A stretch of 64,000 bases of DNA from Prauserella alba (GTDB taxonomy: Bacteria; Actinomycetota; Actinomycetes; Mycobacteriales; Pseudonocardiaceae), in NCBI RefSeq assembly GCF_024171735.1, contig NZ_JAMTCH010000006.1, positions 372,001 through 436,000 of the forward strand. The letters run 5' to 3'. The notes beneath the pieces are model-generated. The model was not told the DNA's origin, searched no databases, and saw only the letters and a program-made list of their open reading frames with translations. Both the position numbers and the translations under genes were made by a program. The stretch's first letter is position 1; each line of letters begins with the position of its first letter. Shown here one piece after another: positions 12,274 to 59,986 of the stretch.

Positions 12274-12340
12274 GTCGAGAACATGCAGGTCACAAGGGTG
12301 GGCCGGGTCGGACTTGAACCGACGGCCAAAGGATTATGAG
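12274..12340. repeat. Left attachment repeat (tRNA-Met 3' remnant)
   Basis: This is the left copy of the 67-bp repeat. Positions 12299-12340 duplicate the tRNA-Met sequence from the anticodon loop to the 3' end, but the 5' half of the tRNA is missing. After 12340 the sequence departs completely from the right copy. The only mismatch lies in the part outside the tRNA. This is the expected distal junction of a tRNA-integrating element. Confidence 0.88.
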
Positions 12341-12471
12341 ACACCCGGCAGCCGTCGCACAGAGCCCTCACCAGCAGTGACGCTCCACGAGACGTCACGA
12401 TGGGTGCGAACTAGGCACCATGAGGAACCGTTTCGCACCCAAACTCGCACCCACAGGTGCGCTGAGCCGGT

Positions 12472-12514
12472 CACCTATCGGCGCACCTCGCGAAACGAGG
12501 TGCGCCGATAGGTG
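12472..12514. terminator. Long perfect hairpin just inside the left island end
   Basis: A 19-bp perfect inverted repeat (12472-12490 and 12496-12514) encloses the 5-base loop CGAAA. It has no T-run, as is common in high-GC actinomycetes. It may insulate the island from the adjacent chromosomal transcription unit. It could instead be a recombination-directionality or arm site, since GGTGCGA-type short repeats lie just before it. Confidence 0.6.
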
Positions 12515-12702
12515 CAGCGCCACCAAGGCGGCTCAACTCGGTCGGCGGTGAACCAATGCTCCAGTCACCCACGACCGAATTGACGCCCTGCACCCTCAAC
12601 CGACTACGCGGATCATCTTCCGGTTGGCGAACTCCTCTTCCATGCCAGTCCCGTTGATCAACACCATTCTGGCCTCGAATCGGTCAAAAGACGTACGATC
12701 CG

Positions 12703-13165
12703 AGTCCGAGCTCTGTGTCTGCTGCACGGCCTCCCGAGTGATCGTCGCCGAGTCCGGAGCCAAGGAGTTCATCGACAGATACGTGCACCACGCAGGAACG
12801 TTGGCCGTCGGACCCTGACACCGCAAAGGGCCGACTCGTCTCCGCGAAACAGTTGGACCGTCACAGGCCTGGTCGACCGCGCACGCGCCGCGCGGCCAAA
12901 CCCGTCGACTTTGGTGGAACGCAATTCGACCGGCCCGGCTCCTACTATTCCCCGCTGTGCTGACCGACGTCGAACAGGACTTGGAGATCATGCAGAAGGA
13001 AGGGTTCGGTTCGGTTGTCACCATCGAGCGATCGCACGCCCTGAGCGTAAACCTCAAGTTCGGCACGGTCTGGATCAATCCCGGACCAAGCACGCTATGG
13101 TGCGCCCAAAGGCCTGGCCTCACCACGCCTGCGACCGGAACTGCTCGGGCGCTCGCTCCAAGTAG
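12703..13165 (+). pseudogene. Aldehyde dehydrogenase C-terminal remnant
   Basis: Reading across frames gives a recognisable aldehyde dehydrogenase tail. CVCCTASRVIVAE (active-site Cys region), then KEFIDRYVHHAGTLAVG, DPDTAKGRLVSAKQLD, GLVDRARAA, GTQFDRPGSYYSP, VLTDVEQDLEIMQKEGFG and LKFGTVWINPG occur in family order, but they need at least three frame changes. The first roughly 280 residues are absent. The remnant is non-functional and lies next to, and opposite in orientation to, a decayed FAD/Fe-S dehydrogenase. Together they suggest that an older oxidation module at the island end has been lost. The spaced family motifs make the call; exact ends are approximate. Confidence 0.65.
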
Positions 13166-13186
13166 TTCCGGTCAACACCAGGCGCA

Positions 13187-14290
13187 TCAGTGCTGGTCGG
13201 GTGCGGTCGGCTCTGAGTCGTCTCGCCTGAGCACACCCGCCAACACTTCTGCCAGCTGCTTGCTTTCGGCGTCGGTGCCTTGGTGGATCTGCGTCCGGCA
13301 GGAGAACCCTCTGCAAGGATAACGTCGTACTCCCCTGCGGCCCGTACTTTCGGTCGCGCGGCGTCGTCCCCGGATACGCCTGGTCTGCGGGTATGCCATC
13401 GGGTCAAGGACACGGCGTTGAGGCCGATCATCTGCCGCCGCGGCTCGATGCCGCCGAGCCACTTGGTCAACTCTTCGACGGGCCGGAAAGACTCGACCAA
13501 GTTGACCAGCTGCAAGGCGCCTGGGACCTTCGCCAACCAGCGCAGCACCCACGGCATTCAGCCCATCGTGAAGTGCGCCCGCGGCCGCCGGTTCTTTCCG
13601 AAGAACCCTCTGACACCTCGCCGGTAATGATAATGAAGGAACTCGGATTTGTACGTTGCCATGTCCACGTTGACGGGGCATTCGGAGACGCACGCCTTGC
13701 AGGACAGGCACATGTCCAGTGCGTCACAGACCTCTGTGGACTTCCACCCGTCGCTGATGCTCTGTCCGCGCAGCATCTCGGCCAGGACGCGGGCCCGTCC
13801 TCGCGTGGAGTGGACCTCGTCGCCGCTGACGTGGAAAGACGGACACACGGCCCCGACGTCGGAGCGGCACGCTCCCACACCCACACACCGGTTGACGGCG
13901 CTGGTGAATGATCCTCCGTCACGAGAGAAGGCGTGCACCGACGTCAGCTCGAGTTGGCCTCGTCCCGGCCCCGGCGCACTCCGTGATCGATCGGTTCGGG
14001 GCGACCAGCACGCCCGGGTTGAACACTCCGTCAGGGTCGAAGACTTCCTTGAATGCCCGGAACCCCCTCAGCGCTGCCGGTGAGTAGATCGCTGGAAGAA
14101 GCTCAGAACGAGCCTGCCCGTCGCGGTGTTCTCCCGACACGGAGCCGCCGTAGGAACGGACGAGCTCAATAGCACGTTCGATGAAACGGCGGTACAGGGC
14201 CAGACCCGGTTCGGTCTCGAGGTCGAAGGAGATCCGGAGATGGACGCAGCCCTCTCCGAAGTGGCCGAACGGAATCCCTTCCAGCCCGGG
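13187..14290 (-). pseudogene. Decayed FAD/Fe-S D-2-hydroxyacid dehydrogenase
   Basis: Fragments in different minus-strand frames align in order with the intact protein encoded at 38934-41831. FGHFGEGCVHLRISFD and SVSGEHRDGQARSELLP come from the FAD-oxidase C-terminal domain; RCVGVGACRSDVGAVCPS and CLSCKACVSECPVNVDM are the two Fe-S cysteine clusters; FSCRTQIHQGT is the extreme C-terminus. The N-terminal FAD domain and most of the cysteine-rich CCG region are missing, and stops and frameshifts separate the pieces. It is therefore a dead paralogue within the same island. Confidence 0.8.
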
Positions 14291-14461
14291 TTCCGTCTGT
14301 TCCGAGCTTCGGCAAAACTGGTACCACGAAAGAGGAGGTGAGCTGGACCTGTAACGGAGGCCACAGGGCTATCAGTATTCACGGCTAACACTGGACTCGG
14401 CCTCGGGCTGGTGATCGCTTGACAATCCGGATCCCACCCGAGCTCGATCGGAACGGCGGTA

Positions 14462-15973
14462 TTGCCCGTGAACTGGTATCTGGTATGGATCGTTGGGTTT
14501 CTGATCCTCTTGTTCGCCGTCAGCGTGAAGTCGGCGAAGACCGTCAAGACGGCCGCCGACTACGCGATGGCCGACTTCAAGCTGGGGTTCTTCCCGATCT
14601 GCGGGTCCATCATCGCGACCGTGACAGGCTCCGCGGCGCTCATCGGCGGGGCAGGCAAGGGCTTCGAGATGGGGATCTCCTACCTCGTCACCGCCAGCTA
14701 CGTGCTGTTCACCGTTGTGGGCATGCTGGTCCTGGGGCCGGTGATCCGGAAGCTGCGCCTCTATACAGTGCCAGAGCTGTTCGCCCGCCGCTTCGGCAAG
14801 CTCGCCGCTCTCATCCCCGCACTGATCATCGGCTTTCTCTACATGACCCCCACCTTCGGGATGCAACTGGTGGGTATGAGCTCGATCCTCTCCTCCATCA
14901 CCGACCTGTCGTTCCTCTGGGGCATCGTCCTCGGCTTTACCGTGGTCGTCGCGTTTACCCTGATCGGCGGTATGCCTTCCGTGGCCTGGACGGACGCCAT
15001 CCAGACCGTAGTGATCCTCGGCGGAGTGGTCCTCACGCTCGTCGTGGGCGTGGCGCACGTGGGCGGTCCGGGCGTCGTCGCCGCCGCCACCCCTGAGCGT
15101 CTGCTCAGCTTCGGCAGCATCGGCTTCACGGAGCTGCTGAACTGGTTCCTGATCTTCGGCCCGTTCTACCTCGTCTGGCAGACCACCTGGCAGCGGATCA
15201 CTGCCGCGAGGTCCACGAAGGTGGGCATCTCCGCCGTCACGATCGGCTTCGTGATCTCCGGCCTGGTCGGCCTCCTGGCGATCTTCATCGGCATCGCCGC
15301 CGTCCAGATGTTCCCTGCAGGAACCGACCCCGACGTCGTCTACACCTCGTTCATCACGCAGATCTTCCCCGGTTCCATCGGGGGTCTGCTCATGGTCTCG
15401 CTGTTGGCGGCGCTGCTCACCGGTGCCACCTCGTTCCTGCTCAGCGGCGCCATCAACATCTCGAAGGACATCTACGAGGGGTGGATCAACCCCAAGGCCG
15501 GCGACGCCCAGATCCTCAAGATCTCCCGCCTGTCCGTCGCCTTCATGGCCGTGCTCGGTCTCGTGATCGCCCTGTGGGTCACCGACATCATCGTCATCTA
15601 CCAGATCGCGCTGTCCTTCACGGCTTCCGCGCTGGTCGCCCCGGCGCTGGCCGCCATGTTCTGGGAGCGGGCCACCAAGGCCGGCGTCATCACCAGCACC
15701 ATCGGCGCCCTGGTCGCGTCCCTGGCCTGGCGCCTCGCGGGAACACCGTTCGGGATCCACGAGATCGCCCCGGGACTCGCCGTCTCGGCCGTGCTGCTCG
15801 TCGCGGTCAGTCTCGCCACGCGCCACTCCGACGACGAAACAGTCACCGCGTACTTCCACGCATTCCGGCGTGGCCGCATAACCGACAGCGAGGCCCCGGA
15901 CACGGACACCGCTCCGACACCCTCCGCCCCGATCGATGCCGGGAGAACCACGGATGACGCACTACCTCGCTAG
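14462..15973 (+). CDS. Sodium:solute symporter family (SSS) permease
   Basis: The 503-residue membrane protein has about 13 predicted helices, beginning at WYLVWIVGFLILLFAVSV. It shows SSS-family features: GSAALIGGAGKGFEMG in the first core repeat, VPELFARRFGK, and the region NISKDIYEGWI. The start is TTG at 14462. It would import an organic solute with Na+. It is followed, 57 bp later and on the same strand, by an amidohydrolase and a CobW-type GTPase, so an amide or cyclic imide/ureide imported for hydrolysis is a reasonable guess. In this island an N-acyl-taurine or related amide is possible but unproven. Confidence 0.85.
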   Translation: MPVNWYLVWIVGFLILLFAVSVKSAKTVKTAADYAMADFKLGFFPICGSIIATVTGSAALIGGAGKGFEMGISYLVTASYVLFTVVGMLVLGPVIRKLRLYTVPELFARRFGKLAALIPALIIGFLYMTPTFGMQLVGMSSILSSITDLSFLWGIVLGFTVVVAFTLIGGMPSVAWTDAIQTVVILGGVVLTLVVGVAHVGGPGVVAAATPERLLSFGSIGFTELLNWFLIFGPFYLVWQTTWQRITAARSTKVGISAVTIGFVISGLVGLLAIFIGIAAVQMFPAGTDPDVVYTSFITQIFPGSIGGLLMVSLLAALLTGATSFLLSGAINISKDIYEGWINPKAGDAQILKISRLSVAFMAVLGLVIALWVTDIIVIYQIALSFTASALVAPALAAMFWERATKAGVITSTIGALVASLAWRLAGTPFGIHEIAPGLAVSAVLLVAVSLATRHSDDETVTAYFHAFRRGRITDSEAPDTDTAPTPSAPIDAGRTTDDALPR

Positions 15974-16030: not shown

Positions 16031-17710
16031 GTGGAACACACCACCGTCTACCCTGCCCGCATCGTCCGCACCATGGACCCTGCCCGTCCGACGGCGGAGG
16101 CCGTCGCCGTGCGCGGCGAGCGAATCCGCGCGGTCGGCAGTGTCTCCGAACTCATGGCCTACCCCGGCGCGGTTCTGGACGAGCGCTACGCCGACACCGT
16201 CCTGCTGCCCGGGTTCGTGGAGGCCCACAGCCACGCCGGCTCCGGCAACGTGTGGGCCGACACGTACGTGGGCTTCGTGGACCGGATCGCCCCGGACGGC
16301 CGACGATGGCCCGGCTGCCGCACCATCGACGAGGTTCTGGACCGGCTGCGCGCGGCCGAGACCGAGCTGCAGGATCCGAACGAGCCACTGATGGCGTGGG
16401 GCCTTGACCCGATCTACTTCCCTGGCCGGCCCCTGGCCGCCGCTGAACTGGACCGGGTCTCGACCACGCGTCCCATCCACGTCTCACACACCAGCGGGCA
16501 CGTGTGCGCCGTGAATTCGGCGGTGCTTCGCCGGTTCGGGATCGACGCGTCCACGCGCGTCGCCGGCGTGGTCAGGAACGACGCCGGCGAACCCACCGGG
16601 GAGTTGCAGGAGTTCGCGGCCATGGGGCTGGTCGGCGAGCTCGTCGAGGGCTCGGGTCTGTTGGACATCAACCCCGAGGCCTTGCACCGGTTCGCGCAGG
16701 AAGGCGTCAACACGGGCACCACGACGCTGACGGACCTGGGCACGCGCCTGCTGATGGACGACGACGGCGTGGCCCTCTACCGCTCGACCGTCGACGAGGA
16801 CTTCCCCATCCGCCTGAACGTGTTCCATTTCGGCGCCGGGGTCGGCCGGTTCGCACTGTCCCTACCGGAGGCCGCGGAGCGGCTGGTGCGGCTGCGCGAG
16901 ATCTCCACGACCAAGCTTCGCTTCGGCAACGTCAAGCTCATGCTTGACGGTTCCATCCAGGGCTTCACCGCGCGCCTGCGGGACCCGGGCTACCTCGGTG
17001 GACAGCCGAACGGGATCTGGAACGTCAGCCCGGAGGAGTTCCGCGAGGCGTTCGAAGTGTTTCACCGGGCCGGACTGCTGGTCCACGTGCACTGTAACGG
17101 AGACCAGGCCACCCAGCTGTTCCTTGACACGCTCGAAACCATCCTCACCGCGCACCCGCGTCCCGACCACCGCCACACGTGCACGCACTCGCAACTGAGC
17201 ACCGCGGCGCAATACCGGCGCATGGCCGCCCTGGGCATGTGCGCGAACATCTTCGCCAACCACATCTGGGCCTGGGGTGACCAGCACATCGACGTCACAG
17301 TGGGCCCGGACAGGGCCGCCCGCATGAACGCGGCCGCGACGGCACTGCGCCTCGGGGTGCCAATCTCCCTGCACTCGGACACCCCGGTCACGCCGCTGGG
17401 CCCACTGCACGCCGTGAAGCACGCCGCGACCCGGCTGACGGTCTCCGGCCGCATCATGGGCGAGCACGAGCGGATCGGTGTACAGGAGGCGCTGGAGTCG
17501 GTGACGATCGGCGGAGCGTACATGCTGAAGATGGACCACGAGGTCGGCTCGCTCGAGGCGGGGAAGCTCGCGGACCTGGCCGTGCTGGCCGAGGACCCGC
17601 TCGCCGTCGAACCCGAGCACATCGGCGACATCCACGTCCTCGGCACCGTAGTCGGCGGCCGCCACCGCGCTACGAAGGCCGCGGCCCCCTCGGAAGTGCC
17701 CGCGTCGTGA
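16031..17710 (+). CDS. Amidohydrolase, YtcJ-like (amidohydrolase 3) family
   Basis: The 559-residue protein starts at GTG after CCGAAAGGG. It has the beta-sandwich start (YPARIVRTMDPARP), the metal-ligand motif HSH at residues 66-68, further His ligands in HVHCNGDQA and HTCTHSQL, and HSDTPVTPLGP near the C-terminus, followed by the closing GSLEAGKLADLAVL. This fold hydrolyses C-N bonds with one or two metal ions. It overlaps the following CobW-like gene by 4 bp (GTGA), so the two are translated together, and an SSS permease precedes it. Substrate unknown. Confidence 0.85.
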   Translation: MEHTTVYPARIVRTMDPARPTAEAVAVRGERIRAVGSVSELMAYPGAVLDERYADTVLLPGFVEAHSHAGSGNVWADTYVGFVDRIAPDGRRWPGCRTIDEVLDRLRAAETELQDPNEPLMAWGLDPIYFPGRPLAAAELDRVSTTRPIHVSHTSGHVCAVNSAVLRRFGIDASTRVAGVVRNDAGEPTGELQEFAAMGLVGELVEGSGLLDINPEALHRFAQEGVNTGTTTLTDLGTRLLMDDDGVALYRSTVDEDFPIRLNVFHFGAGVGRFALSLPEAAERLVRLREISTTKLRFGNVKLMLDGSIQGFTARLRDPGYLGGQPNGIWNVSPEEFREAFEVFHRAGLLVHVHCNGDQATQLFLDTLETILTAHPRPDHRHTCTHSQLSTAAQYRRMAALGMCANIFANHIWAWGDQHIDVTVGPDRAARMNAAATALRLGVPISLHSDTPVTPLGPLHAVKHAATRLTVSGRIMGEHERIGVQEALESVTIGGAYMLKMDHEVGSLEAGKLADLAVLAEDPLAVEPEHIGDIHVLGTVVGGRHRATKAAAPSEVPAS

Positions 17711-18753
17711 CCGCCCGGCTGGGAATCATCGGCGGCTACCTGGGCTCCGGTAAGTCCACCCTGGTGAACCGACTGTTGGCGGGCGGGTTGCGGGGCCGCG
17801 TCGCCGTCGTCGTCAACGACTTCGGAAGCGTCAACATCGACGCGGACCTCATCGCCTCGGCCTCCGAGGACACAGTGGAGCTGACGAACGGGTGCATCTG
17901 CTGCCAGATCAGTAACGACGCGTCCCGCACCATGTCGGCGCTGGCCACGCGCAGGGACCTTGACCACGTGCTCTGCGAGGTCAGCGGCGTCGGTGACCCC
18001 GGCCGGCTCGCCATGTGGCGGGACTTCCCGGGCTTCTCCCCTGGCCCGGTGCTGGTGTGCGCTGACGCGACCGCCGTACGGCGGCTGCTGCGCGACGAGT
18101 ACGTCGGCGACACGGTGGCGCGGCAACTCGCCGCGGCGGAGGTCGTGCTGGTGACGAAGACCGACCTGGCCCTGCCTGCCGAAACCGAGGCCGCCTCGGA
18201 GACGTGCCACGCAGCGGCCCCGCGGGCACGGCTGATCCTGCAGGATGTCGCGGATCCGGGGGCGACGGCGACCGAGGCCCTCGCCGCGGCGGTGCCGGGT
18301 GCGGACGACGGCGGCGCCGTGGAACACGGCAGCCACAAGGAGCGAGAGGACCACGGCGAGGCCGGCGCTGCTGGCTGGACGGACCGCCACAGTGGGCCCG
18401 ACCACGCCTCCGCCGTGCTCGAGTGCCCGGATCCGGTGGACGTGGACATGCTCGCCCGAGCGCTGGGCGAACAGGCGGATCGGCTCATCCGGGCGAAGGG
18501 CGTCGTCCGAGACACAGCGGGACGCTGGCACGAGGTCCAGCTCGCCGGCGAGCGGGTCGACGTGCGCCCGCGGCCTGGCGGCGGGCTTCCACCCGGACGA
18601 CCGGCACTGGTGCTCATCGCCGCGGGACCGGAGGCGGACCTACAAGCCGGGGAGGCCGCTGCGGCGCTGGCTCCGATCCGCGGAAGCGCACCGAGCGGTC
18701 CGCCGTCGGCATGTCGGATGAGGCCGGACAGCGACACGTGCCCCGGCGATTGA
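17707..18753 (+). CDS. CobW/COG0523-family metallochaperone GTPase
   Basis: The 348-residue protein carries the P-loop GYLGSGKST (residues 10-18), the metal-binding CxCC motif GCICCQ (Cys63, 65, 66) and a His/Asp-rich linker (residues about 198-235 with EHGSHKEREDHG and DRHSGPDH), then a CobW C-terminal-like domain with VRDTAGRWHEVQLAG. COG0523 GTPases hand Zn, Co or Fe to client proteins. The start codon overlaps the stop of the amidohydrolase, making that enzyme the likely client. An alternative client is any metal enzyme of the island. Together with the CobS/CobT-like genes at 22.4-25.2 kb it gives the island three Cob-type relatives without a cobaltochelatase CobN. Confidence 0.85.
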   Translation: MTARLGIIGGYLGSGKSTLVNRLLAGGLRGRVAVVVNDFGSVNIDADLIASASEDTVELTNGCICCQISNDASRTMSALATRRDLDHVLCEVSGVGDPGRLAMWRDFPGFSPGPVLVCADATAVRRLLRDEYVGDTVARQLAAAEVVLVTKTDLALPAETEAASETCHAAAPRARLILQDVADPGATATEALAAAVPGADDGGAVEHGSHKEREDHGEAGAAGWTDRHSGPDHASAVLECPDPVDVDMLARALGEQADRLIRAKGVVRDTAGRWHEVQLAGERVDVRPRPGGGLPPGRPALVLIAAGPEADLQAGEAAAALAPIRGSAPSGPPSACRMRPDSDTCPGD

Positions 18754-18758
18754 GGCTC

Positions 18759-19484
18759 TCACGCGGAGGAAAGGGTTGCTACGCCCGCCGCAACCACCAG
18801 GCCGCAAGTAATCAGGCGGAACTTCGCGGGTGCGATTCTCGGCGCCAGCCTCGTCCCAACCCAATTCGCCGTCAGCGCGCACGGCAGCCACCACGCGAGC
18901 AGTCCGAGATGAGCCGGATCCACGCCATCACGGACCAGCAGGATGGACAACCCGGCGATATTGCTCAGCACGAAGTACACCGCCAGGTCCGCGATGAAAC
19001 TCCGCTGGTCAGCGGCGTCGGCGGACAGGCCAAGCGCCGGGGGAATCCCGTTCAGCGACGTCGTGGTGGCCAGTGCACCGCCCGCGAAACCCGACACCGC
19101 GTACCGCACGGGGGAACCACCCTGAGCACGAGGCCGAGTGAACAGCATTATCGGCGCGGCGATCAGGACCATCGCGCCGGTGCCGATGCGCAGGTACTCC
19201 GGATCGAGCGCGCCACCGACGCTCGCGCCGACCAACAACCCAGGCAGACTCGCGAGGGTCAGCGGCAGAGCACGAGGCCACCGGATGAACTGTCGCAGCC
19301 GATGGACCACCTGTAGCCGGGTAACCAGCGCGATCGTCAGGGTGACGGAGACGGCCGTCGCCGGCGCGACACCGAGCACCAAAAGCAGCGGTGTGGCCAC
19401 GATGTTGAAGCCAAATCCGGTCATGCCGCCGAGAAACGCGGCAACGGCCACGATTCCCAGACCCCCAAGGACCACAGTGGTCAA
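18759..19484 (-). CDS. tauE: TauE/SafE-family sulfite/sulfonate exporter
   Basis: The membrane protein of about 241 residues has eight or so hydrophobic segments and the family pattern GGMTGFGFNIVATPLLLV near the start and SGFAGGALATTTSLNGIPPAL in the second half. In sulfonate-degrading bacteria TauE removes the sulfite made by Xsc. I chose TTG at 19484 because GGAGG lies six bases upstream and longer forms run into the hairpin at 19543-19600; a GTG at 19547 is possible. It lies on the same strand as xsc, 130 bp after it. Transport of sulfite itself is inferred from this neighbour. Confidence 0.8.
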   Translation of the reverse strand: MTTVVLGGLGIVAVAAFLGGMTGFGFNIVATPLLLVLGVAPATAVSVTLTIALVTRLQVVHRLRQFIRWPRALPLTLASLPGLLVGASVGGALDPEYLRIGTGAMVLIAAPIMLFTRPRAQGGSPVRYAVSGFAGGALATTTSLNGIPPALGLSADAADQRSFIADLAVYFVLSNIAGLSILLVRDGVDPAHLGLLAWWLPCALTANWVGTRLAPRIAPAKFRLITCGLVVAAGVATLSSA

Positions 19485-19542
19485 AGGCCGCCTCCATGTC
19501 GTCGACCATGCCGTCGTTACCGTGCACAGGACAAGCACTGCG

Positions 19543-19600
19543 CCCACGGTCGGCCGGTCCCGGCTGCCTCGTCGCGTGCCGGGACCGGCTCAACCGTGGG
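19543..19600. terminator. Nested hairpin between xsc and tauE
   Basis: An inner 12-bp perfect stem (19553-19564 with 19578-19589) is enclosed by an outer 8-bp stem (19543-19550 with 19593-19600). It lies just after the xsc stop codon on the minus strand. It would end or attenuate xsc transcription and lower expression of tauE. Confidence 0.65.
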
Positions 19601-19614: not shown

Positions 19615-21423
19615 TCAGACGTAGTCCTTGTACTTGTCCAGGTACCGTACGGGCTTGCGCAGGGCGTCCCGGCGGAACGGATCACCCAGTTCGCGGGTGC
19701 ACATGATCTCCACGACGGTCGTCACACCCTCGTTCATCTGCCGTTCCACGGCCTGCTGCAGCGCGGGGCCCACCTCGTCGAGCTTGTCCACCACGACGCC
19801 CTCGGCACCCATCGCCTGGCCGATCTTGGCGAAGCTGTCCGTCTCCAGTTCCTCGGCGATGAACCGCCGGTTGTAGAAGTCGACCTGATTCTTCTTCTCA
19901 GCACCCCACTGGCGGTTGTGGAACACCACTGCCGTGACAGGAATGTCGTGGCGGACCGCGGTCATGATCTCGCCCATGCTCATCGCCCAGGCGCCGTCAC
20001 CGGCGTAGGCGATCGCGGGGCGTTCCGGGGCAGCCGCCTTGGCCCCGATGATCGTCGGCAGCGCGTAGCCGCAGTTGCCGAAGCTCATCGGCGCGAAGAA
20101 ACTGCGCGGCCGTTCGAACCTCAGGTAGCTGTTGGCCACCGAGTTGATGTTGCCGATGTCGGTGGAGACCATGACCTCCTCCGGCATCGCCCTCTCCAGC
20201 TCGCGCAGCACTTGCCGCGGGTGCAGCCAGTTGCCTTCCTCCTGCTCCTGCTCGGCGATCATGTCCAGGCTGTACGGGTCGGTCTCGTGGGTCCACTCGT
20301 CCAGCTCGGTCTCCCATGCGGCCTTCTCCGCCCGCATCGTGGCCCAACGCTGCTCACGGGTGGTGTCACACGCCAGCTCACGACCGGAGAGCCGCTCGGA
20401 CAGAGCCGTCGCGGCGGCGCCGGCGTCGCCGCAGATGCCCACGGCGATCTTCTTGACCAGGCCGAGCATCTTGTGGTCGGCGTCGACCTGAATGATCTTG
20501 GCGTTGGTCGGCCAGTAGTCCAGGCCGTGCTGCGGGAGCGTGCCGAACGGGCCGAGGCGCGTGCCGAGGGCCACGACCACGTCGGCCTGCGAGATCAGCT
20601 TCATGGCCGCCTTCGACCCCTGATATCCCAGCGGGCCGCACCACTGTGGATGGCTCGCCGGGAACGAGTCGTTGTGCAGGTAGCTGTTGACCACCGGGGC
20701 ACCCAACCGCTCAGCCAGCTGCCGACACTCGTCAACGGCATCTGCCATGACGACACCACCGCCCGAGATCACGACCGGGAACTCCGCCTCGGCCAGCAGC
20801 TCCGCCGCCTCCGACAGGCTCTGTTCGCCTCCAGGACCGCGGTCGAGCCTGCCCGGCTGCGGAATCTCGGTGGTGACCTCGCCGTAGAAGTGGTCCCGTG
20901 GGATGTTGAGCTGGGTCGGCCCGATTTCCGACAGAGCCCGGTCGAAGCACCGGCCCGTGTACTCGGCCATCCGGGCGGGGTTGTTCACGTGGCCCTGATA
21001 CTTGGTGAACTCCTGGAACATGGGCAGCTGGTTGGCCTCCTGGAACCCACCCAGTCCGGTGCCCATGGTCCCTGCCTCCGGCGTGACGATGACCACCGGA
21101 CTGTGCGCCCAGTACGCCGCGGCGATCGACGTCACGCAGTTGCTGATACCGGGCCCGTTCTGCCCGATCACGACGCCGTGACGGCCACTGACCCGGGCGT
21201 AACCGTCGGCCATGTGCCCGGCGCCCTGCTCGTGCACCACCGGAACCAGCCGGATACCGGCAGGCGCGAATATGTCCATGGCGTCCATGAACGCCGAGCC
21301 CATGATGCCGAAGATGTCGGTGACATCGTTGGCGACCATCGTTTCCACGAACGCCTCGGACGGGGTCATTCGCTGCTGGCCGGAGACGACCGCCCGGCTG
21401 GTCCCTTCGGTGTTGTCGGTCAT
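19615..21423 (-). CDS. xsc: Sulfoacetaldehyde acetyltransferase
   Basis: The 602-residue thiamine diphosphate enzyme converts sulfoacetaldehyde and phosphate to acetyl phosphate and sulfite, the C-S bond-breaking step of taurine and isethionate catabolism. It matches the Xsc pattern closely: FGIMGSAFMDAMDIF, the ThDP-activating Glu65 in VVHEQGAGHMADG, FQEANQLPMFQEFTK, NIPRDHFYGE, and the ThDP/Mg motif starting AYAGDGAWAMSMGEI near residue 472 and closing with FHNRQWGAEKKNQVDFY. Length is normal for the family. GAGAGGA precedes the ATG. The gene is divergent from an IclR regulator and shares with it a 175-bp promoter holding two copies of a 20-bp motif. No truncation is seen. It is the anchor of the island's sulfonate metabolism. 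Confidence 0.95.
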   Translation of the reverse strand: MTDNTEGTSRAVVSGQQRMTPSEAFVETMVANDVTDIFGIMGSAFMDAMDIFAPAGIRLVPVVHEQGAGHMADGYARVSGRHGVVIGQNGPGISNCVTSIAAAYWAHSPVVIVTPEAGTMGTGLGGFQEANQLPMFQEFTKYQGHVNNPARMAEYTGRCFDRALSEIGPTQLNIPRDHFYGEVTTEIPQPGRLDRGPGGEQSLSEAAELLAEAEFPVVISGGGVVMADAVDECRQLAERLGAPVVNSYLHNDSFPASHPQWCGPLGYQGSKAAMKLISQADVVVALGTRLGPFGTLPQHGLDYWPTNAKIIQVDADHKMLGLVKKIAVGICGDAGAAATALSERLSGRELACDTTREQRWATMRAEKAAWETELDEWTHETDPYSLDMIAEQEQEEGNWLHPRQVLRELERAMPEEVMVSTDIGNINSVANSYLRFERPRSFFAPMSFGNCGYALPTIIGAKAAAPERPAIAYAGDGAWAMSMGEIMTAVRHDIPVTAVVFHNRQWGAEKKNQVDFYNRRFIAEELETDSFAKIGQAMGAEGVVVDKLDEVGPALQQAVERQMNEGVTTVVEIMCTRELGDPFRRDALRKPVRYLDKYKDYV

Positions 21424-21460
21424 TGGGATTCCTCTCACGCCGGAAGCTGGAACAGGCACC

Positions 21461-21578
21461 ATGTATGAAGAATCGGTACGCCACGTCCCTAATATCAGGA
21501 CTCGACGGTAGAGCGCCGCCACATCGGAGTCAATGGATATACCGTTAAGTCGAACGACATGTACTGATTTTCGGTACC
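21461..21578. promoter_or_regulatory. Divergent xsc/iclR promoter with two operator-like repeats
   Basis: Two copies of a 20-bp motif stand in the same orientation: ATGTATGAAGAATCGGTACG at 21461-21480 and ATGTACTGATTTTCGGTACC at 21559-21578, spaced 98 bp. The shared frame is ATGTAY-N8-CGGTAC. The first lies 38 bases before the xsc ATG and the second 18 bases before the iclR start, so each promoter is covered by one copy. The adjacent IclR protein is the obvious candidate ligand. Confidence 0.6.
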
Positions 21579-21595
21579 TCAGGTAGTGTGTTGAC

Positions 21596-22408: not shown

Positions 22409-22436
22409 CCCCCCGGTACACGATGAGGAAGCCAGC

Positions 22437-47580: not shown

Positions 47581-47596
47581 CACGAAGGAGACTCTG

Positions 47597-50520: not shown

Positions 50521-50553
50521 GCGCCACCTTTCGTGCTGGAGTTGGTGTCGGGA

Positions 50554-52642: not shown

Positions 52643-52710
52643 GACAATGACCTTTCGTGATGGGCGAGCGCCGGACGGTCCGGCGGGACGCTGAAGTGGC
52701 TGACACCGGG

Positions 52711-54216
52711 TCAAACCTCGGCGTCGGCGGGTAGACCTGCCTTTCGTTTGAAGCTCGAGCTGAGCACGGAGCCGAGAAGGATCACGCCGGCCAGAATGAG
52801 GAACGCCAAGGAGAGTGGCCGGTCGATGAAAATTGCGAAACTGCCCTGCGAAATTTGGAGTGACTCTCGCAGCGCGCCCTCGAGGAACGGACCGAGGATC
52901 AATGTCAGGACGAGCGGAGCGAGCGGAATCCCGACTTGCCGGAACACGAACCCTAGAATTCCGAAGAAGATCATCACGTAGATATCGGCGACACTGTTGG
53001 CCACGGCGAAGGAACCGATGATCACGAACGCGAATATCACGGCCCGAAGAACTGAGTACGGGATCGCTAGAATTCGTGTCCACAGACCGACCAGCGGCAC
53101 GTTGAGGATGAGCAGCAGCAGGTTGCCGATGAACAGGCTCGCGATCACCGCCCAGACCAGGTCCGGTTCCTCGGTGAACAGTGTCGGCCCCGGGGTCAGG
53201 CCGTTCTGGAGGAAAGCACCCATCAGAACAGCTATGGCCGGTGATGCGGGAATGCCGAGTGTGAACAACGGGATGAAGGAAGCGTTGCTGTGCGAGTTGT
53301 TCGCGGTCTCCGGCGCGGCAACGCCTTCGACCGCACCCGTGCCGAGCTCCGAACGGTGACGAGACAGCTTTCGTTCGGTGCTGTAGGCCAACAGTGACGA
53401 GATCGCCGAACTGACCCCGGGGATCAGGCCGATCACACCCCCGATGGCAGTGCCCCGCGCGACCGCCGGAGCACTGCGACGGGCGTCAACACGACTGGGC
53501 AACATGTCCCGGAGCCGTGGCGCTGCAGGGCGCGGCGCAGACCCCCCTGTCGTGGCCAAGAGCTCGCCCAGCCCGAACAATCCCACCAGTACCGGTACGT
53601 AACTGACCCCGTCGAAGAAGTGCGGAAGTCCGAACGTGAACCGCGGCTCCCCCATCACCGGATCGATGCCGACCATGGCGATCAGCAAGCCGAGACAGGC
53701 CGAAATGAGACCCATCAGGACGGACCGGCCGACTAGGCCGACCAGCAGTGCGAGGCCAATGAGGATGAGGGAGAAGAACTCTGGTGGTCCGATTTGCAAG
53801 CCGAGTTCGGACAGCGGCTGCGCTGCGAACACGAGCGCGATCGTGGCGACGGTACCGCCGAGGAACGAGCCGACACCCGCGGTCGTCAACGCGACGCCGG
53901 CACGGCCGCGCAGGGTCATTTGGTAGCCGTCGAGACACGTGATGGCGGATTCGCCCTCACCCGGAATATTGAGCAGGACGCTGGTGATGGTACCGCCGTA
54001 GGCACCACCGTAGAAGATGGCCGCCAGCATGATGATCGCTCCGGCCGGATCCATCGAGAGAGTCAGCGGAATCAGAATTGCCATTCCCGCCGTCGAGCCG
54101 ATTCCCGGCAATAGACCGAGGATCGTACCCAGAAGGCAGCCGACCAGAGCGAACAGCAGGTTCTGCGGCGACAGTGCAGTGGCGAAGCCGTCGATCAGGA
54201 AACTGAAGGATTCCAT
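52711..54216 (-). CDS. tctA: Tripartite tricarboxylate transporter, large membrane subunit
   Basis: The 501-residue protein with about 12 helices has the TctA marks FALVGCLLGTILGLLPGIG near the start, FYGGAYGGTITSVLLNIPGEGESAITCLDGY, and GLIPGVSSAISSLLAYSTER. It forms the channel with TctB and is driven by Na+ or protons. It starts only 3 bp after the tctB stop. Confidence 0.93.
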   Translation of the reverse strand: MESFSFLIDGFATALSPQNLLFALVGCLLGTILGLLPGIGSTAGMAILIPLTLSMDPAGAIIMLAAIFYGGAYGGTITSVLLNIPGEGESAITCLDGYQMTLRGRAGVALTTAGVGSFLGGTVATIALVFAAQPLSELGLQIGPPEFFSLILIGLALLVGLVGRSVLMGLISACLGLLIAMVGIDPVMGEPRFTFGLPHFFDGVSYVPVLVGLFGLGELLATTGGSAPRPAAPRLRDMLPSRVDARRSAPAVARGTAIGGVIGLIPGVSSAISSLLAYSTERKLSRHRSELGTGAVEGVAAPETANNSHSNASFIPLFTLGIPASPAIAVLMGAFLQNGLTPGPTLFTEEPDLVWAVIASLFIGNLLLLILNVPLVGLWTRILAIPYSVLRAVIFAFVIIGSFAVANSVADIYVMIFFGILGFVFRQVGIPLAPLVLTLILGPFLEGALRESLQISQGSFAIFIDRPLSLAFLILAGVILLGSVLSSSFKRKAGLPADAEV

Positions 54217-54219
54217 GCG

Positions 54220-54822
54220 TCAGAGCCCCAGGCCACTCAGGAACGGGATGGAGGCGGTGGGCAGCGGCACGCTCAACATGCGCGTGAACACCACGAAAAC
54301 GCCGAAACTCCCGCCAAGTGCGATCACCGTTGAGAGCAGCAACCCACGGCGGCCGAGCACGATCAGGTGAAAGAGCAGGAACAGCAGCATGCTCAGCTGA
54401 TAACCAAGTGGGTTCAAAACCGCGGCCACCACGCAAAGGCTCACCACGATCGCAACCACCGTCGGCAGCGAGTACGCCGGCGCCGCCTCCACTTCGGACG
54501 CCTGCGCACTGGGTGCCCCACCTTCTCCAGAGGAGGAGTGGGCGGCCCCAGCACGGTCACGGCCCGTCCGCCACAGCTGGGCCAGCCACACCGCTCCAAA
54601 AACCGCGAGCAGGCCACCCAGCCAGGAGGGGAAGAAGCCGGGACCCGGTCCGAGTGCGGTCCAATACTGGTAAGCGCGTGACCCCACGAACGCCGCTACA
54701 CCCACCGCGATCACAGCGCATGCCATGAAGGTCGCCAGCAACCGGTGCCCCCGCTCACCGTCCGAGACGGACACCTGCGTATGACCGATGCTGTCCGTTG
54801 CATCCGTCTCGCTCATCGACAC
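54220..54822 (-). CDS. tctB: Tripartite tricarboxylate transporter, small membrane subunit
   Basis: The 200-residue protein has four hydrophobic helices, AFVGSRAYQYWTALGPGPGFFPSWLGGLLAVFGAVWL (two regions) and two more near the C-terminus, with the family's GPGFFP motif and a hydrophilic central loop. It is the first gene of the tctBAC-rraA-usp-dehydrogenase operon. ATG 54822 or 54816 may be used. It is divergent from an IclR gene. Confidence 0.88.
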   Translation of the reverse strand: MSMSETDATDSIGHTQVSVSDGERGHRLLATFMACAVIAVGVAAFVGSRAYQYWTALGPGPGFFPSWLGGLLAVFGAVWLAQLWRTGRDRAGAAHSSSGEGGAPSAQASEVEAAPAYSLPTVVAIVVSLCVVAAVLNPLGYQLSMLLFLLFHLIVLGRRGLLLSTVIALGGSFGVFVVFTRMLSVPLPTASIPFLSGLGL

Positions 54823-54921
54823 CTTCTCACTGTATGATAGGCTCTTTCATGTAACGGGTAGGGACTTTGCTTCACGGGCCCACCGATGTCAAGTGACCGC
54901 GTACCGCCGTATGGGAGCGCT

Positions 54922-55680
54922 ATGACGGAAAGCAAACAGGCCAGCACTATGCGTTCGCTTGAGAGAGCGATCGATGTCCTCGAGGTGCTTGAGACGGCAG
55001 GTGCACCACTACGGCTGAGCGACATCGCGCGTCGCGCTGGCCTCCATGTGGCCACGACCCAACGGATCCTCGGGGTACTTGAGACTCGGGGACGAGTCGA
55101 AGAGGACCGGTCGGGCTACCGCACCGGAGTCGCGATGCTCTTCGGTGCGCATGCGTACCTTGCCAGCAACCCGGTCGCTGTCGCTGCTCCCCTCGTGCTC
55201 CAGCAACTGGCTGCTGCCACGGGACTCACCGCCTCAGTCTTCGTCCGCGCCGGGAACTCGCGCGCAGTCGTCGCACGGGTCGAAGGTAAGGACCCCCTGC
55301 GCTATGTTCTCCCCATCGGCCAGAGGCTGCCGCTGCATCTCGGCGCCGGCAAAGTACTGGCTGCTCACATGGACGACGCCGAGGTCGAACAGCTACTCGA
55401 TCGCATCGGCGACATCACTCACGCCGATGGTCGATCCATGACAAGGACCGAGTTTCTAGCAGAGCTTGCGACCGTTCGTGCGCAGGGTTGGGCGGAATCA
55501 ACGGACGAACGCGTCGTCGGCGCCACCTCAATCGCGGCACCCGTCGTCGGATCGGACGGCGTCTGCACGACCGCAGTCCAGATCGCCGGGCCGTCGACGA
55601 GCGCCATGTTCGAGGACATACACGCGGTCACAATCGAGGTACGCCAAGCCGCGACGGCACTTGCCACACGCCTCGGCTGA
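54922..55680 (+). CDS. IclR-family regulator of the tct operon
   Basis: The 252-residue protein starts at ATG 54922, five bases after GGGAG. It has a winged helix (TMRSLERAIDVLEVLETAGAPLRLSDIARRAG, TTQRILGVLETRGRVEE) and an IclR effector domain (FVRAGNSRAVVARVEGKDPLRYVLPIGQRLPLHLGAGKVLAAHM). It is divergent from tctB; TGTATGA near 54830 and TCATGTA near 54848 form an imperfect inverted repeat between them. It probably controls the transporter operon in response to the imported acid. Confidence 0.9.
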   Translation: MTESKQASTMRSLERAIDVLEVLETAGAPLRLSDIARRAGLHVATTQRILGVLETRGRVEEDRSGYRTGVAMLFGAHAYLASNPVAVAAPLVLQQLAAATGLTASVFVRAGNSRAVVARVEGKDPLRYVLPIGQRLPLHLGAGKVLAAHMDDAEVEQLLDRIGDITHADGRSMTRTEFLAELATVRAQGWAESTDERVVGATSIAAPVVGSDGVCTTAVQIAGPSTSAMFEDIHAVTIEVRQAATALATRLG

Positions 55681-55800
55681 GCCATTCCACCGGCAAATGC
55701 GTTCCGAACGACTCAGCCGAGAGTCACACTTCCCTACTCAGTGGCGATGTTTAGCTCTGTGCGGTCGCTCGACCAGAGGGTGTGAAATACACCAGGTTTG

Positions 55801-57185
55801 TCAACACGCCTGTAGGTATGGGCGGACACCGAAGAAGTCGCGCTGACCTTGTATCAGTGCCGCGGAAAGGCGGCCGGTCGAGAGTGAGTCATAGTAGCTC
55901 AACGCGGCGGCGAAACCTGGAATCGGAACGCCGGGAAGCGTCGCAGTCGCCACAAGCCGACGCCATGCCGCTTCGCCGTCCGCGACTGCACGGGAGAAGT
56001 ACGGAGCTTCCAACAGTGTTGTGAGATCCGGATTTTCTTCATACGCCTCGGCTATGCGGTTCAGGAACTGAGCCCGGATTATGCATCCTCCACGCCAGAT
56101 TTTCGCGATTTGGTCCTTGTGGATGCTTCATCCGTACTTCCGCGCGCCGGCTGTAATGACGTCGAAACCCTGGTCGTAAGCAACGACTTTAGACGCGTAT
56201 AGCGCCTTAGCGACATCGTCGGAGAACGAGGCGTCGACCTTCCGCGCCGCAGGGCGCTCCGTGGCGACCCGTTGCACCGCTTCCCGTTGCGCAGGCTTGC
56301 CGGAAACGGCAGGGGCTAAGATTTCCGCCGCGATGCCTCCTACGGGAACGCCAAGATCGAGCGCATTCTGCACGGTCCACACCCCAGTTCCTTTGGAGCC
56401 GGCCTGGTCCAGCACAATGTCAACGAACGGCTTGCCGGTTGCGGAATCGACCTGGCGTAACACTTCGGCTGTGATCTCGATCAGATAGGATTCGAGAGGT
56501 CCGCGATTCCATTTGGTAAAGATGTCGGCGATGGTGGTGGGACTGTGGCCACTGACAGTGCGCAAGAGATCGCATGCCTCAGCGATCAACTGCATGTCGG
56601 CGTACTCGATACCGTTGTGGATCATCTTTACGAAATGGCCGGCCCCGTCGGTGCCCACGTGGGTAACGCAGGGCTCACCGTCTGCAACGGCAGCAATCGA
56701 GTCAAAGATGGGACCGGTTGTTTCGTAGGAGGCTGCTGATCCACCGGGCATGATCGGTGGGCCCCGCAGCGCGCCTTCTTCACCGCCGGAGATGCCTGCG
56801 CCGACGAAGTGGATGCCGGTGGGAGCGATGCGCTGTTCACGAGCGATGGTGTCGTGAAAGTTCGCATTACCGCCGTCGATGATGATGTCGCCGGCCTCGA
56901 ATCGTTCGGTGAGCTGATCGATTACCGCGTCGGTGGCCGTGCCGACCTGGACCATAATGATCGCAGTGCGCGGTTGTGTCAGGGATGCAACGAACTCGTC
57001 CAGTGTTCTGCCGGCGACGAAACCGGCGTCGGGGTGTTCGGCAAGCAGTTCCTCGGTGCGGGTGCAAGTACGGTTGTAGATAGCGACGGTGTTGCCGTCG
57101 CGGGAGGCGAGATTGCGGGCGAGGTTGGACCCATCACTGCCAGTCCGATCACGCCAACGTTGGCCTCTGCTGTGTTGGTGCGCAT
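55801..57185 (-). pseudogene. gnd: 6-phosphogluconate dehydrogenase, frameshift and nonsense
   Basis: The start MRTNTAEANVGVIGLAVMG loses one base near 57130 and continues in another frame as SNLARNLASRDGNTVAIYNRT. The body is typical of decarboxylating Gnd: FVGAGISGGEEGALRGPPIMPGG, HFVKMIHNGIEYADMQLIAEA, and LDQAGSKGTGVWT. At 56128 a TGA replaces the Trp codon usual in this family, then the sequence goes on as IAKIWRGGCIIRAQFLNRIAE to the real C-terminus at 55801. It is inactive by two lesions. It follows gntK, idnD and SDR remnants in an old gluconate/idonate operon. Confidence 0.85.
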
Positions 57186-57189
57186 GCGG

Positions 57190-57718
57190 ACACACTTCTT
57201 TCAGATAGTGCTCGGAGCGCGCGGTGTACGACCACGTCGAGGGGCGCGTCGACATCGATGGTGAGCCCTGGCTCGTGCTCGCCGAGACATTCGAGGGTGC
57301 TGAGCTGGCTAGTCAGCAGCGACGATGGCATGAAGTGCGAGTTCCTGGCGTCCATACGGCCACCGATAACATCGCGGTCTCCGTTCAGGTGGACGAACAC
57401 CGCGCCGGGAGCCTGCCGCCGGATGGCTTCTTCGATAGCTCCGGCGGAGCGCCGAGCAGGCGATGACGAGTCCGGTCGCGGCGCTGTCTTGTAGCGCACG
57501 TCCAACGTCACGCAGCCACGGCCAACGGTCTCGGTCCGTGAGTGGTGTCCCATTGGCCATCTTCGCCACATTGCCTGGCGGGTGAAGGTCATCATCGTCG
57601 ACGAACCGAACACCGAGTCGTTCGGACAGCCGGGTTTCGACGGCGCTTTCCCGGAGCCTCACACACCCATGACGACCACCAACGGCGGTGCGGATTCCGT
57701 GTGCCGCATCATCATTGG
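57190..57718 (-). pseudogene. gntK: Gluconate kinase, multiple lesions
   Basis: Parts of thermoresistant gluconokinase occur in order but in different frames. VVVMGV is followed by an in-frame stop inside the P-loop, then GSGK; then ERLGVRFVDDDDLHPPGNVAKMANGTPLTDRDRWPWL, IACSALRRSYR, and after another shift APGAVFVHLNGDRDVI and DARNSHFMPSSLLTSQLSTLE. Three or more lesions make it inactive. It would have phosphorylated gluconate for gnd. Confidence 0.75.
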
Positions 57719-58755
57719 TCCCGGAACGAGAGGAGGACCTTGCTCGACACCGATGCATCGCCAGCGACAGCGAAGGCATCGAGCGCTTCGCCGACAGGGA
57801 AAACATGGGTGACGACCGGCTCGACGACTAGCGACCTGTCAGCTAGGGCCGTGATCACCTCGTCGATCTCATCGTTGAATCGGAATGAGCCGACAAGGTG
57901 GAGCTCCCGGGTAATTGCCAGCGACATGGGTACAGGCTGATCCCCGCTGGGCAGCAAGCTCGACCATGACGACCGTTCCGCCGCGCGCGGAGCCGTTGAC
58001 GGCCGATGTGAGTCCGCGATGGTTGCCGGACGATTCGATGGCCACGTCTGCTTCGACAGCGGCGATCTCCTCGGAGTCCGTGGCCCGCAACGTCCGGGTC
58101 GCGCCGACGGCGGTCGCGATCTCGAGGGGCTTGTCGTGGAGATCGACCGCGACGATCTCCGCAGCGCCGGCACGCTTGGCTACCGCGACAACGAGGGCGG
58201 CGATGGGGCCGCTGCCGATTACGAGCACACGTCGACCGCTGAGATCTCCCGCTTTTGAAACCGCATGCCAGGCGACGCCGGCAGGTTCGGCGAGTGCGGC
58301 CGCGCGAAGGTCGAGGTCGGGCGGCAGCTCACGGAGCATCGATGCGGCCAGCACGACCTCGTGGGCGAACGCACCTTGGGTATGCGGGAACCGGGCTGCC
58401 GAACCGAGGTAGCGGACGCCGGGGGAAAGGTTGGGCCGGTTCGCCGGGAATCGGACTTCGCTGTGCTCATAGGTCGCCGGGTGTACGGCTACCTGCGAGC
58501 CTTCGGCAGGTCCGGTCCATCGGCTGCCTCCCGTACGACGGTGCCCACGACTTCGTGCCCGAGCACCATAGGCGTCCGCAGGACCGACTCACCGACGGCT
58601 CCATGCTGCCAGTAGTGGAGGTCGGAGCCGCAGATACCACCGTAGGCAACCGCGACGACAGCCTCTCCGGGCGCGGGCGGCCGTACGTCGACTCGCTCGA
58701 CCCTCAGGTCACCTGCCCCGTGAGCCACGACGGCGGTTGTCGAGTTGGTTGTCAT
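57712..58755 (-). pseudogene. idnD: Zinc alcohol dehydrogenase, probable L-idonate 5-dehydrogenase
   Basis: The start MTTNSTTAVVAHG is preceded by GGGAAG. The zinc-binding part YGGICGSDLHYWQHG and MVLGHEVVGTVV is in one frame. After a shift near 58490 the family continues with GAFAHEVVLAASMLRELP, then the Rossmann motif VLVIGSGPIAALVVAVAKRAGA; after a further shift near 57940, PVPMSLAITRELHLVGSFRFNDE to the end. The pattern suits L-idonate or sorbitol dehydrogenase. It is inactive. Confidence 0.75.
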
Positions 58756-58770
58756 TCGCACTTCCCGTTC

Positions 58771-59436
58771 TCACACGACGGCGGTCAAGCCGCCATCGAC
58801 GAAGATGACCTGACCGTTGACGTAGTCGGAGGCGCTCGAGGACAGCCATACGGCGGGGCCCACGAGATCGGCGACCGTGCCCCATCGGCGGGCAGGAGTC
58901 CGCCCGAGGATCCAGGAGTTGAACTCCGCATCGTCAACGAGTTTCTGGGTCATCTCGGTGTGGATGTACCCCGGGGCGATGCCGTTGACCTGTAGTCCTT
59001 CACCGGCCCACTCAGCGGTCATGGCTCGCGTCAGGTTGCGTAACGCACCCTTCGCTGCTGTGTAGGGGCCGATGGTCGGGCGCGCAAGTTCGGCCTGCAA
59101 CCGAGCAGATGTTGACGATCTTTCCCGCGCGTCGGCGCAACATCCGCCGCGCGACGGTACGGCCCACGAGGAATGCTCCAGTGAGGTTGGTGTCGATCAC
59201 GCGCTGCCAGTCGGCGAGGTGCACGTCGGTGAGGGGTTGGCGGTGCTGAATGCCGGCGTTGTTCGCCAAGACGTCGATCGGTCCGGTTTCGGCTTCGATC
59301 GCGTCGACGGCTGCGGAAACCGCGTCCTAGTCGACGATGTCGAACGCCCGCGGACGATGTCGAACGCCCGCGCAGTGATCCGGTCCTCCCCGTACCGCCG
59401 GGCAAGGTCGACGCGCGCTGCGTCGAGCACCGACGC
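58771..59436 (-). pseudogene. Short-chain dehydrogenase, probable gluconate 5-dehydrogenase, truncated
   Basis: The remnant reads DLARRYGEDRITARAFDIV, NNAGIQHRQPLTDVHLADWQRVIDTNLTGAFLVGR, KIVNICSVAG, PTIGPYTAAKGALRNLTRAMTAEWAG and VNGIAPGYIHTEMTQKLV, ending in FVDGGLTAVV. The N-terminal glycine-rich NAD site is missing at the junction with the integrase. A 20-bp tandem duplication, a TAG and a frameshift near 59100 add to the damage. The catalytic Tyr-Lys pair (YTAAK) is still recognisable. It was probably the first gene of the decayed operon. Confidence 0.75.
59333..59372. repeat. 20-bp perfect tandem duplication in SDR remnant
   Basis: GACGATGTCGAACGCCCGCG occurs twice without spacing (59333-59352 and 59353-59372). 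It breaks the reading frame of the short-chain dehydrogenase and is probably a slippage product. Confidence 0.9.
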
Positions 59437-59831
59437 AACTCCCCGTGCAACGTCTCCAAGTTCCGTGCGCTCAGCTTGTTCACCGGCATCTCGCCGAGCG
59501 CGGGACGGATCGTGCGCTCGATGTAGCCCACGTACGCATGCCGCGTCGTCGGCTCGATGTCACTACTGCGCAACCACTCGTCGATGGCATACGAGAACGC
59601 GACGTTCGTACTCGGCACCCGCTGCTTATCGACCTGCGACTACAGCTTGGTCATCACCTTGTCTGCACGCCGGTACGCCGCCTTATCCGTACCCGGCACA
59701 GTCTCCGACAAATAGATCTCCTTGCCGGTCACCGGATAGACACCCGCGTACACGCGCACCTGCAGCGAGCCGCCACGGCGCCGGATGTTGCCGCGACCCC
59801 GCCGGTCACTGCCGTTCTCAACCCCAGCCAT
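59437..59831 (-). pseudogene. int: Tyrosine recombinase (integrase), N-terminal half
   Basis: From ATG 59831 the frame reads RGRGNIRRRGGSLQVRVYAG and SETVPGTDKAAYRRADKVMTKL, then a TAG stop at 59640, then VPSTNVAFSYAIDEWL and TTRHAYVGYIERTIRPALGEMPVNKLSARNLETLHGELRRC. This is the arm-binding plus core-binding region of an actinomycete integrase. After GELRRC the sequence switches to a truncated dehydrogenase. The start lies 89 bp from the attachment repeat, the usual position. The catalytic half is at 47911-48545. Both the nonsense codon and the break would abolish integrase activity. Confidence 0.82.
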
Positions 59832-59919
59832 GCGTCCAGAGTCCGCCGCCCGCCGGCGCCGGTCAAGAACTCGGCCATGGACAAAGCCATGGACAAACGA
59901 TCTTGACCTCGCGATCGGG

Positions 59920-59986
59920 GTCGAGAACGTGCAGGTCACAAGGGTGGGCCGGGTCGGACTTGAACCGACGGCCAAAGGATTATGAG
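59920..59986. repeat. Right attachment repeat
   Basis: This copy of the 67-bp repeat covers the 3' 42 bases of the tRNA-Met gene and 25 bases beyond it. It differs from the left copy (12274-12340) only at one base outside the tRNA. The intact tRNA is retained on this side. Confidence 0.9.

Follow-up and report, generated by a model that had tools for sequence, protein, structure and literature searches.

A tRNA-Met gene of Prauserella alba as a probable hotspot for stacked integrative units, with a sulfonate block in the tRNA-proximal unit

The DNA analysed here (the window) is a 64,000-nucleotide stretch of the Prauserella alba genome (5.6 Mb, 11 contigs), corresponding to C4:372001–436000; positions given without a contig name are those of the window. 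Within it, 12274–59986 forms a repeat-bounded unit that ends at a tRNA-Met gene and carries candidate genes for sulfonate metabolism. A third copy of the attachment (att) repeat farther left, the lack of chromosomal core directly left of 12274 and truncated att copies in all seven genomes compared (P. alba and six same-genus relatives, G001–G006) together lead us to read the locus as a tandem array. We consider it highly probable that the tRNA-Met gene is a hotspot and that 12274–59986 is the tRNA-proximal unit of this array. The gene would then be a genus-wide landing site where stacking, exchange and breakage of metabolic blocks take place, and the case illustrates how what looks like a single island can belong, as one of several units, to a larger stack.

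Repeats and integrase at the tRNA-Met gene

The unit is framed by 67-bp direct repeats at 12274–12340 and 59920–59986, which differ by one mismatch and are spaced 47,646 bp apart. ARAGORN places an intact tRNA-Met gene (anticodon cat), the integration target, at 59943–60018 on the minus strand, and therefore 44 of the 67 bp of the right repeat are its 3′ half, which both repeats hold. The copy at 59920–59986 is thus the att copy at the tRNA and the right end of the unit; that at 12274–12340 serves both as the left end of the unit and as the right end of the next one. A third copy, 92% identical over 63 bp, lies in the same direction at C4:365377 (6.6 kb beyond the left edge of the window), giving P. 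alba three same-direction att copies. The repeats and their shared tRNA half had been described in a first-pass annotation of this DNA and were confirmed by repeat comparison and ARAGORN. Its proposal of site-specific integration at tRNA-Met is likewise supported by the tRNA 3′ half in the repeats and by the adjoining integrase.

The integrase gene is present in two parts. Its N-terminal half (59417–59831, minus strand) is 92% identical to residues 1–143 of the G002 integrase, and the DNA of 59417–59919, which adds part of the upstream region, is 97% identical to G002. As had been claimed, this remnant stands beside the tRNA; its start is at ~59831 on the minus strand, and it carries an in-frame stop near 59641. 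The C-terminal, catalytic half, absent from the earlier annotation, lies inside the element at 47911–48544 on the same strand (PF00589, 66 bits; integrase family phrog_1, 110 bits). Its DNA matches C36 of G002 at 93% over 543 bp and at 91% over 621 bp. Both halves match one G002 gene, where 233 bp lie between the matches; in P. alba the same interval is an insert of 10,872 bp (48545–59416). The insert holds genes for a NAD-binding enzyme, Usp, an RraA-type protein, a TctA/TctB transporter, IclR and 6PGD, along with partial ADH and SDR genes. Given the stop in the integrase and its interruption by this insertion, the unit can probably no longer move by its own integrase.

Traces of integrase are also found at the two internal att copies of P. 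alba. A decayed integrase 5′ end at ~12206–12268 precedes the att copy at 12274 with an alignment score of 70, against maxima of 37 for shuffled sequence and 36 for core controls. The remnant at the other internal copy scores 61, against maxima of 31 and 36, respectively (500 shuffles each and 62 core pieces served as controls). By DNA alignment, both internal copies thus keep 60–70 bp of the 5′ part of the integrase gene. A tblastn result in which these copies lacked any integrase was overturned by these remnants.

A proposed tandem array across the genus

A 101-base att query was searched against stretches fetched from the seven genomes. It located 23 att places, 7 at a complete tRNA and 16 elsewhere, with at least one extra copy in every genome. 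Twelve of the 16 non-tRNA copies stop at query base 67 and the remaining four at bases 48, 52, 54 and 61; under a looser alignment, five of the 12 extend to base 70. The extra copy shares the tRNA's contig only in P. alba, G003, G005 and G006, in the last of these weakly. Integrase homology is present at the tRNA copy in 7/7 genomes. It forms a single open full-length frame in four of them (G001, G002, G003 and G006), is frameshifted in G004 and is broken in G005 and P. alba.

The variable interval lies between conserved chromosome on both sides. The right flank of tRNA-Met is conserved in 6/6 relatives, and in five of them (G002–G006) it shares a contig with the tRNA. A conserved left core of 4.2 kb (C4:324178–328382) and an S4-domain gene belonging to it (C4:333250–333456) are likewise present in all six. 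Left core and tRNA are on one contig only in P. alba, G005 and G006, at distances of ~98.5, ~154.5 and ~197.4 kb, respectively. They are on different contigs in G002, G003 and G004, and the locus is rearranged in G001, where tRNA-Met and integrase are on C18 (tRNA at 61448–61545), the usual right flank is on C20 and the left-core S4 gene is 1.6 kb from the tRNA.

Left of 12274, the first-pass annotation had assumed ordinary chromosome around a lone island. This was not supported. From att copy, relatives and gene families, 1–12273 is best read as the right part of a neighbouring unit starting at C4:365377, and a search with 1–12273 against the six relatives (E ≤ 1e-20) found a counterpart next to this tRNA in 0/6; 1–12273 was accordingly rejected as chromosomal core. 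Its matches in these genomes are scattered, at 64–76% identity, and none runs into the tRNA flank. The longest span 1.4–1.5 kb at 64–65%, and the strongest (1.1 kb, 71%) is in C5 of G006, ~42 kb from the G006 tRNA and inside that genome's variable interval.

Sequence abutting att copies also recurs between genomes. A 26-kb stretch is common to G005 and G002, with two main pieces 91% and 97% identical; it lies 61 bp right of the G005 copy at 209702 and 114 bp left of the G002 copy at 271473. In G006, pieces found near two of the P. alba att copies reappear around an att copy on another contig. The stretch 13388–14293, which includes a 4Fe-4S remnant, is 87% identical to G006:C1:776250–777157, near an att copy on another G006 contig.

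We propose that elements with a tyrosine integrase entered at tRNA-Met in succession and with the same orientation; each entry would have restored the complete tRNA gene, while a truncated copy of its 3′ half stayed behind. By repeat identity, 12274–59986 would be the youngest unit, in a stack reaching at least to C4:365377. It would have brought or collected the sulfonate block, and a later 10.9-kb insertion would have split its integrase and cost it mobility by that enzyme. On a bold reading, the array could function like a cassette array, in which one live integrase at the tRNA serves a row of units that no longer have their own.

A tandem arrangement of islands at tRNA or tmRNA genes is already known. 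In Dehalococcoides (PMC3146451), islands likewise form a row at one RNA gene, ssrA, with 3′-end repeats all within 100 kb, some units without integration genes and metabolic cargo. The Dehalococcoides system differs in using a serine recombinase and a tmRNA gene, as compared to a tyrosine integrase and tRNA-Met here. The elements of Frankia and Streptomyces avermitilis (PMC3218068) also include a tandem pair at one tRNA gene with an integrase in each, but they are classed as conjugative and have transfer and replication genes, none of which were found in the Prauserella unit open reading frames (ORFs) scanned.

Three alternatives were weighed against the array. An origin of the unit as a remnant actinomycete integrative and conjugative element (ICE) or prophage seems unlikely to us, even though its tyrosine integrase adjoins a tRNA and matches the phage integrase family phrog_1, and tandem arrangements of such elements are known from actinomycetes (PMC3218068). 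The NCBIfam and Pfam scans of 12274–59986, which covered 44 distinct ORFs, with only some of the small ones among them, returned no replication, translocation, relaxase or phage structural family, and PHROGs matched only the integrase among 10 window ORFs. The same scans agree with the first-pass annotation, which saw no transfer or replication genes: no relaxase, FtsK/TraB or Rep family was found among the 44 ORFs scanned. Entry of a single 47.7-kb island into ordinary chromosome, in one event and with all of its cargo, appears quite improbable. It would account for the one mismatch between the end repeats, for the matching integrase at the tRNA end and for the finding of xsc, the sulfoacetaldehyde acetyltransferase gene, in none of the six relatives, but not for the third repeat with no core to the left, the 10.9-kb insertion inside the integrase or a 4.5-kb block of the unit (43364–47822) whose G002 counterpart lies at the left core.

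The first-pass annotation had further predicted an empty site joining 12273 directly to 59987. None was seen, nor is this junction expected, because left of 12274 there is another att-bounded unit. Very improbable, in our assessment, is a sulfonate cargo that was already present in the ancestor of the genus and has since disappeared from the other six genomes. The scatter of xsc in the family and the flank-like G+C and third-codon-position G+C (GC3) of the block are consistent with it; the position of the block between att copies, the several losses needed and the presence of xsc in only 6/100 relatives and 4/394 class members (P. alba included in both) argue otherwise. The cargo was not seen as ordinary chromosome in any of the six genomes, an arrangement that the earlier annotation had named as contrary to its island. 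Across those genomes, the only long contiguous match to the unit is 43364–47822 in G002; the others are 0.9 kb at 87% in G006 and single-gene homologs.

Several observations weigh against the tandem array or leave part of the locus outside it. No empty site was found in the seven genomes, all of which have integrase sequence beside tRNA-Met, and this limits the claim of one precisely bounded island. The 32 kb between the left core and the leftmost P. alba att copy has no recognisable left-edge repeat, so the array leaves part of the variable interval unexplained. The position of several extra att copies relative to the tRNA is inferred, owing to split contigs and the G001 rearrangement. For the shared 26-kb stretch, an att copy is seen on the left in G005 and on the right in G002, with both ends in neither. 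By tblastn, integrase pieces occur at only 3/16 non-tRNA att copies and at none of the other 13. The 43364–47822 block at the left core in G002 points to rearrangement across units. Lastly, the sulfonate block has no near-identical donor, its Xsc reaching at most 87.5% identity among the matches listed.

The sulfonate cargo and the CobS/CobT pair

The first-pass annotation had described the cargo as taurine and sulfonate dissimilation, a claim that is real at the level of gene families: Xsc, alanine dehydrogenase (Ald), a class III aminotransferase, phosphotransacetylase (Pta) and TauE all score over their cut-offs. All four enzymes that would link taurine to acetyl-CoA are present in the unit, the aminotransferase by family only. 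Xsc (19615–21375, minus strand) reaches 1059 bits with TIGR03457 (cut-off 676), and a TauE/SafE sulfite exporter (18759–19547, minus) reaches 103 bits with PF01925 (Pfam cut-off 33). Ald (31067–32317, minus) matches TIGR00518 at 532 bits (cut-off 392). The aminotransferase (32464–33831, plus), a candidate taurine:pyruvate aminotransferase, matches NF005102 at 604 bits (cut-off 574). Taurine as its substrate is inferred from the gene's place; structurally, it best resembles class III enzymes that bear no taurine name, a solved taurine:2-oxoglutarate aminotransferase being a more distant match. Of the two Pta-type genes, which run in opposite directions and are 73% alike over a 322-bp inverted repeat, the second (35039–36058, plus) scores 332 bits with NF007233, over the cut-off of 310, and the first (27430–28566, minus) scores 284, below it. 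A MocR-type regulator (29487–30935, minus) is TauR-like only by position, its best NCBIfam match being PdxR (380, over a cut-off of 320).

Upstream steps may be covered by three further plus-strand genes. A sodium/solute symporter (SSS; 14462–15973), over the PF00474 cut-off and below all NCBIfam cut-offs, could serve sulfonate uptake. An Amidohydro_3 protein (16031–17710; PF07969, 233 bits), 49% identical to the amidohydrolase in the Caballeronia xsc region, is an NaaS-like candidate. It shares four overlapping bases with the gene for a CobW-type GTPase (17707–18753; PF02492, 126 bits), a candidate NaaT-like metallochaperone. In PMC4334477, naaS encodes an N-acetyltaurine amidohydrolase and naaT a putative metallochaperone; set against these descriptions, the pair is a possible family-level fit. 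The proposed route would begin with uptake and NaaST-like conversion of N-acetyltaurine to taurine. The aminotransferase with Ald would yield sulfoacetaldehyde, which Xsc would convert to acetyl phosphate and sulfite, Pta then forming acetyl-CoA and TauE exporting the sulfite. A naa cluster of five genes is reportedly named in Denger 2011.

Xsc-dependent taurine use in an actinomycete is already known. PMC5320631 describes actinobacterial TauR regulons with tauE, tpa, pta, ald and gabP and a MocR regulator, and COG523 proteins with COG1574 proteins in other TauR regulons; by our reading of their families, the CobW and amidohydrolase genes would belong to COG523 and COG1574. Taurine dissimilation in Rhodococcus is among the closest known systems: tauE, tpa, pta and ald under a MocR regulator are shared at the level of these actinobacterial regulons, and its xsc is known from the title of Denger 2004 in the reference list of the same source. 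The Prauserella genes differ in lying in an att-bounded unit and in their NaaST-like genes and CobS/CobT near xsc, neither of which was seen on the Rhodococcus DK17 plasmid up to 9 kb from xsc. Another close system is plasmid pNK83 of Caballeronia sp. NK8, where an SSS symporter, amidohydrolase, GTPase, CobT, CobS, IclR, xsc and pta occur in one stretch; it differs in a choline-dehydrogenase type enzyme in place of the Fe-type alcohol dehydrogenase, and its xsc is 80% identical.

Less expected, and the sharpest lead here, is that a CobS/CobT pair almost always accompanies xsc. The pair (22437–25197, plus; CobS-like AAA+ and CobT-like VWA proteins) is over the Pfam cut-offs for CobS_N and CobT and below both NCBIfam equivalog cut-offs (CobS 516 of 559, CobT 270 of 759). 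It follows an IclR-type regulator (21596–22408, plus; below equivalog cut-offs), and xsc is divergent from this iclR-cobS-cobT group (19615–25197). Among 100 genomes, P. alba included, Xsc was counted at E ≤ 1e-150 in six, with 0/6 in the same-genus relatives, and CobS at E ≤ 1e-30 in exactly the same six. Wider samples gave Xsc in 4/394 class members, P. alba included, and in 0/14 control genomes. Family Xsc proteins are 85–87% identical, and the Xsc of Rhodococcus plasmids 87.5% identical, among the matches listed.

CobS was within the flanks examined at 11/13 other xsc loci. It is near xsc at 5/5 family loci (adjoining it, or with one IclR gene between, at four), at 3/3 class loci (CobT lying past the contig end at one) and in 3/5 plasmid records, the five having been chosen among 15 of 54 matches. 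CobS adjoins xsc or stands two genes away from it in Photobacterium and Caballeronia, and it is ~6 kb off in Cupriavidus; the Photobacterium and Cupriavidus placements of CobS/CobT rest on tblastn, as these records have no gene table there. In Rhodococcus DK17 and Paracoccus jeotgali, no CobS was found up to 9 kb and 8 kb from xsc, respectively. The association thus extends to beta- and gammaproteobacteria, and the idea of an actinomycete feature was dropped, since the pair also accompanies xsc in Caballeronia, Photobacterium and Cupriavidus.

We tentatively suggest, as a possibility we hold less probable than its opposite, that CobS/CobT is an AAA+/VWA helper for sulfonate breakdown rather than a cobalamin enzyme, and that it travels with xsc between phyla. 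Such a helper could, for instance, load metal into, or reactivate, one of the block's enzymes, such as the amidohydrolase. A cobalamin role for the pair would be compatible with a separate CobN that is above cut-off in the P. alba genome. The association is a testable lead to an as yet unassigned helper in organosulfonate turnover. In the literature searched, mostly without subscription papers, there was no report of this link, of taurine and xsc together with a genomic island, or of anything related on Prauserella genomic islands; among the 10 listed of 117 papers on sulfoacetaldehyde or CobS/CobT, one, on methanogens (PMC3087415), mentions sulfoacetaldehyde.

Other genes and base composition

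Additional genes in and beside the block include an APC amino-acid permease (25604–27172, plus; over the Pfam cut-off) and a trio at 36108–41831 (MFS transporter, Fe-type alcohol dehydrogenase and FAD/4Fe-4S oxidoreductase; none over an NCBIfam cut-off). The trio recurs near xsc in G069, and the dehydrogenase and transporter do so in G082. The best NCBIfam scores of the dehydrogenase, to choline dehydrogenase (226 of 550) and sulfoacetaldehyde reductase (204 of 700), are far below cut-off; with the MFS transporter, it may form an isethionate branch. The 43364–47822 block encodes GntR, CoA-transferase, CitE-type lyase and TRAP permease genes; it is 86% identical to G002:C6:227382–231841, a stretch separated from the match to the left-core S4 gene by 107 bp.

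GC and codon bias, which the first-pass annotation had put forward as a check on its island, hardly mark the unit. GC3 is 0.838 in 12274–48545, as compared to 0.845 and 0.868 in the flanks, a weak comparison in that gene picking favoured high GC3; it is lower, at 0.751, in the insert within the integrase. Tetranucleotide distance to core rises to 0.254 at 52–56 kb, as compared to 0.141–0.188 at or next to the core, and it is likewise raised far left of the unit (0.241). With GC and GC3 near those of the flanks and tetranucleotide distance raised only in parts, base composition was of little use here as an island marker.

In the neighbouring unit, 2583–12131 carries glutamine synthetase, alpha/beta hydrolase, FMO-like, amine oxidase, acyl-CoA dehydrogenase and FAD oxidoreductase genes, which perhaps make up an amine breakdown block.

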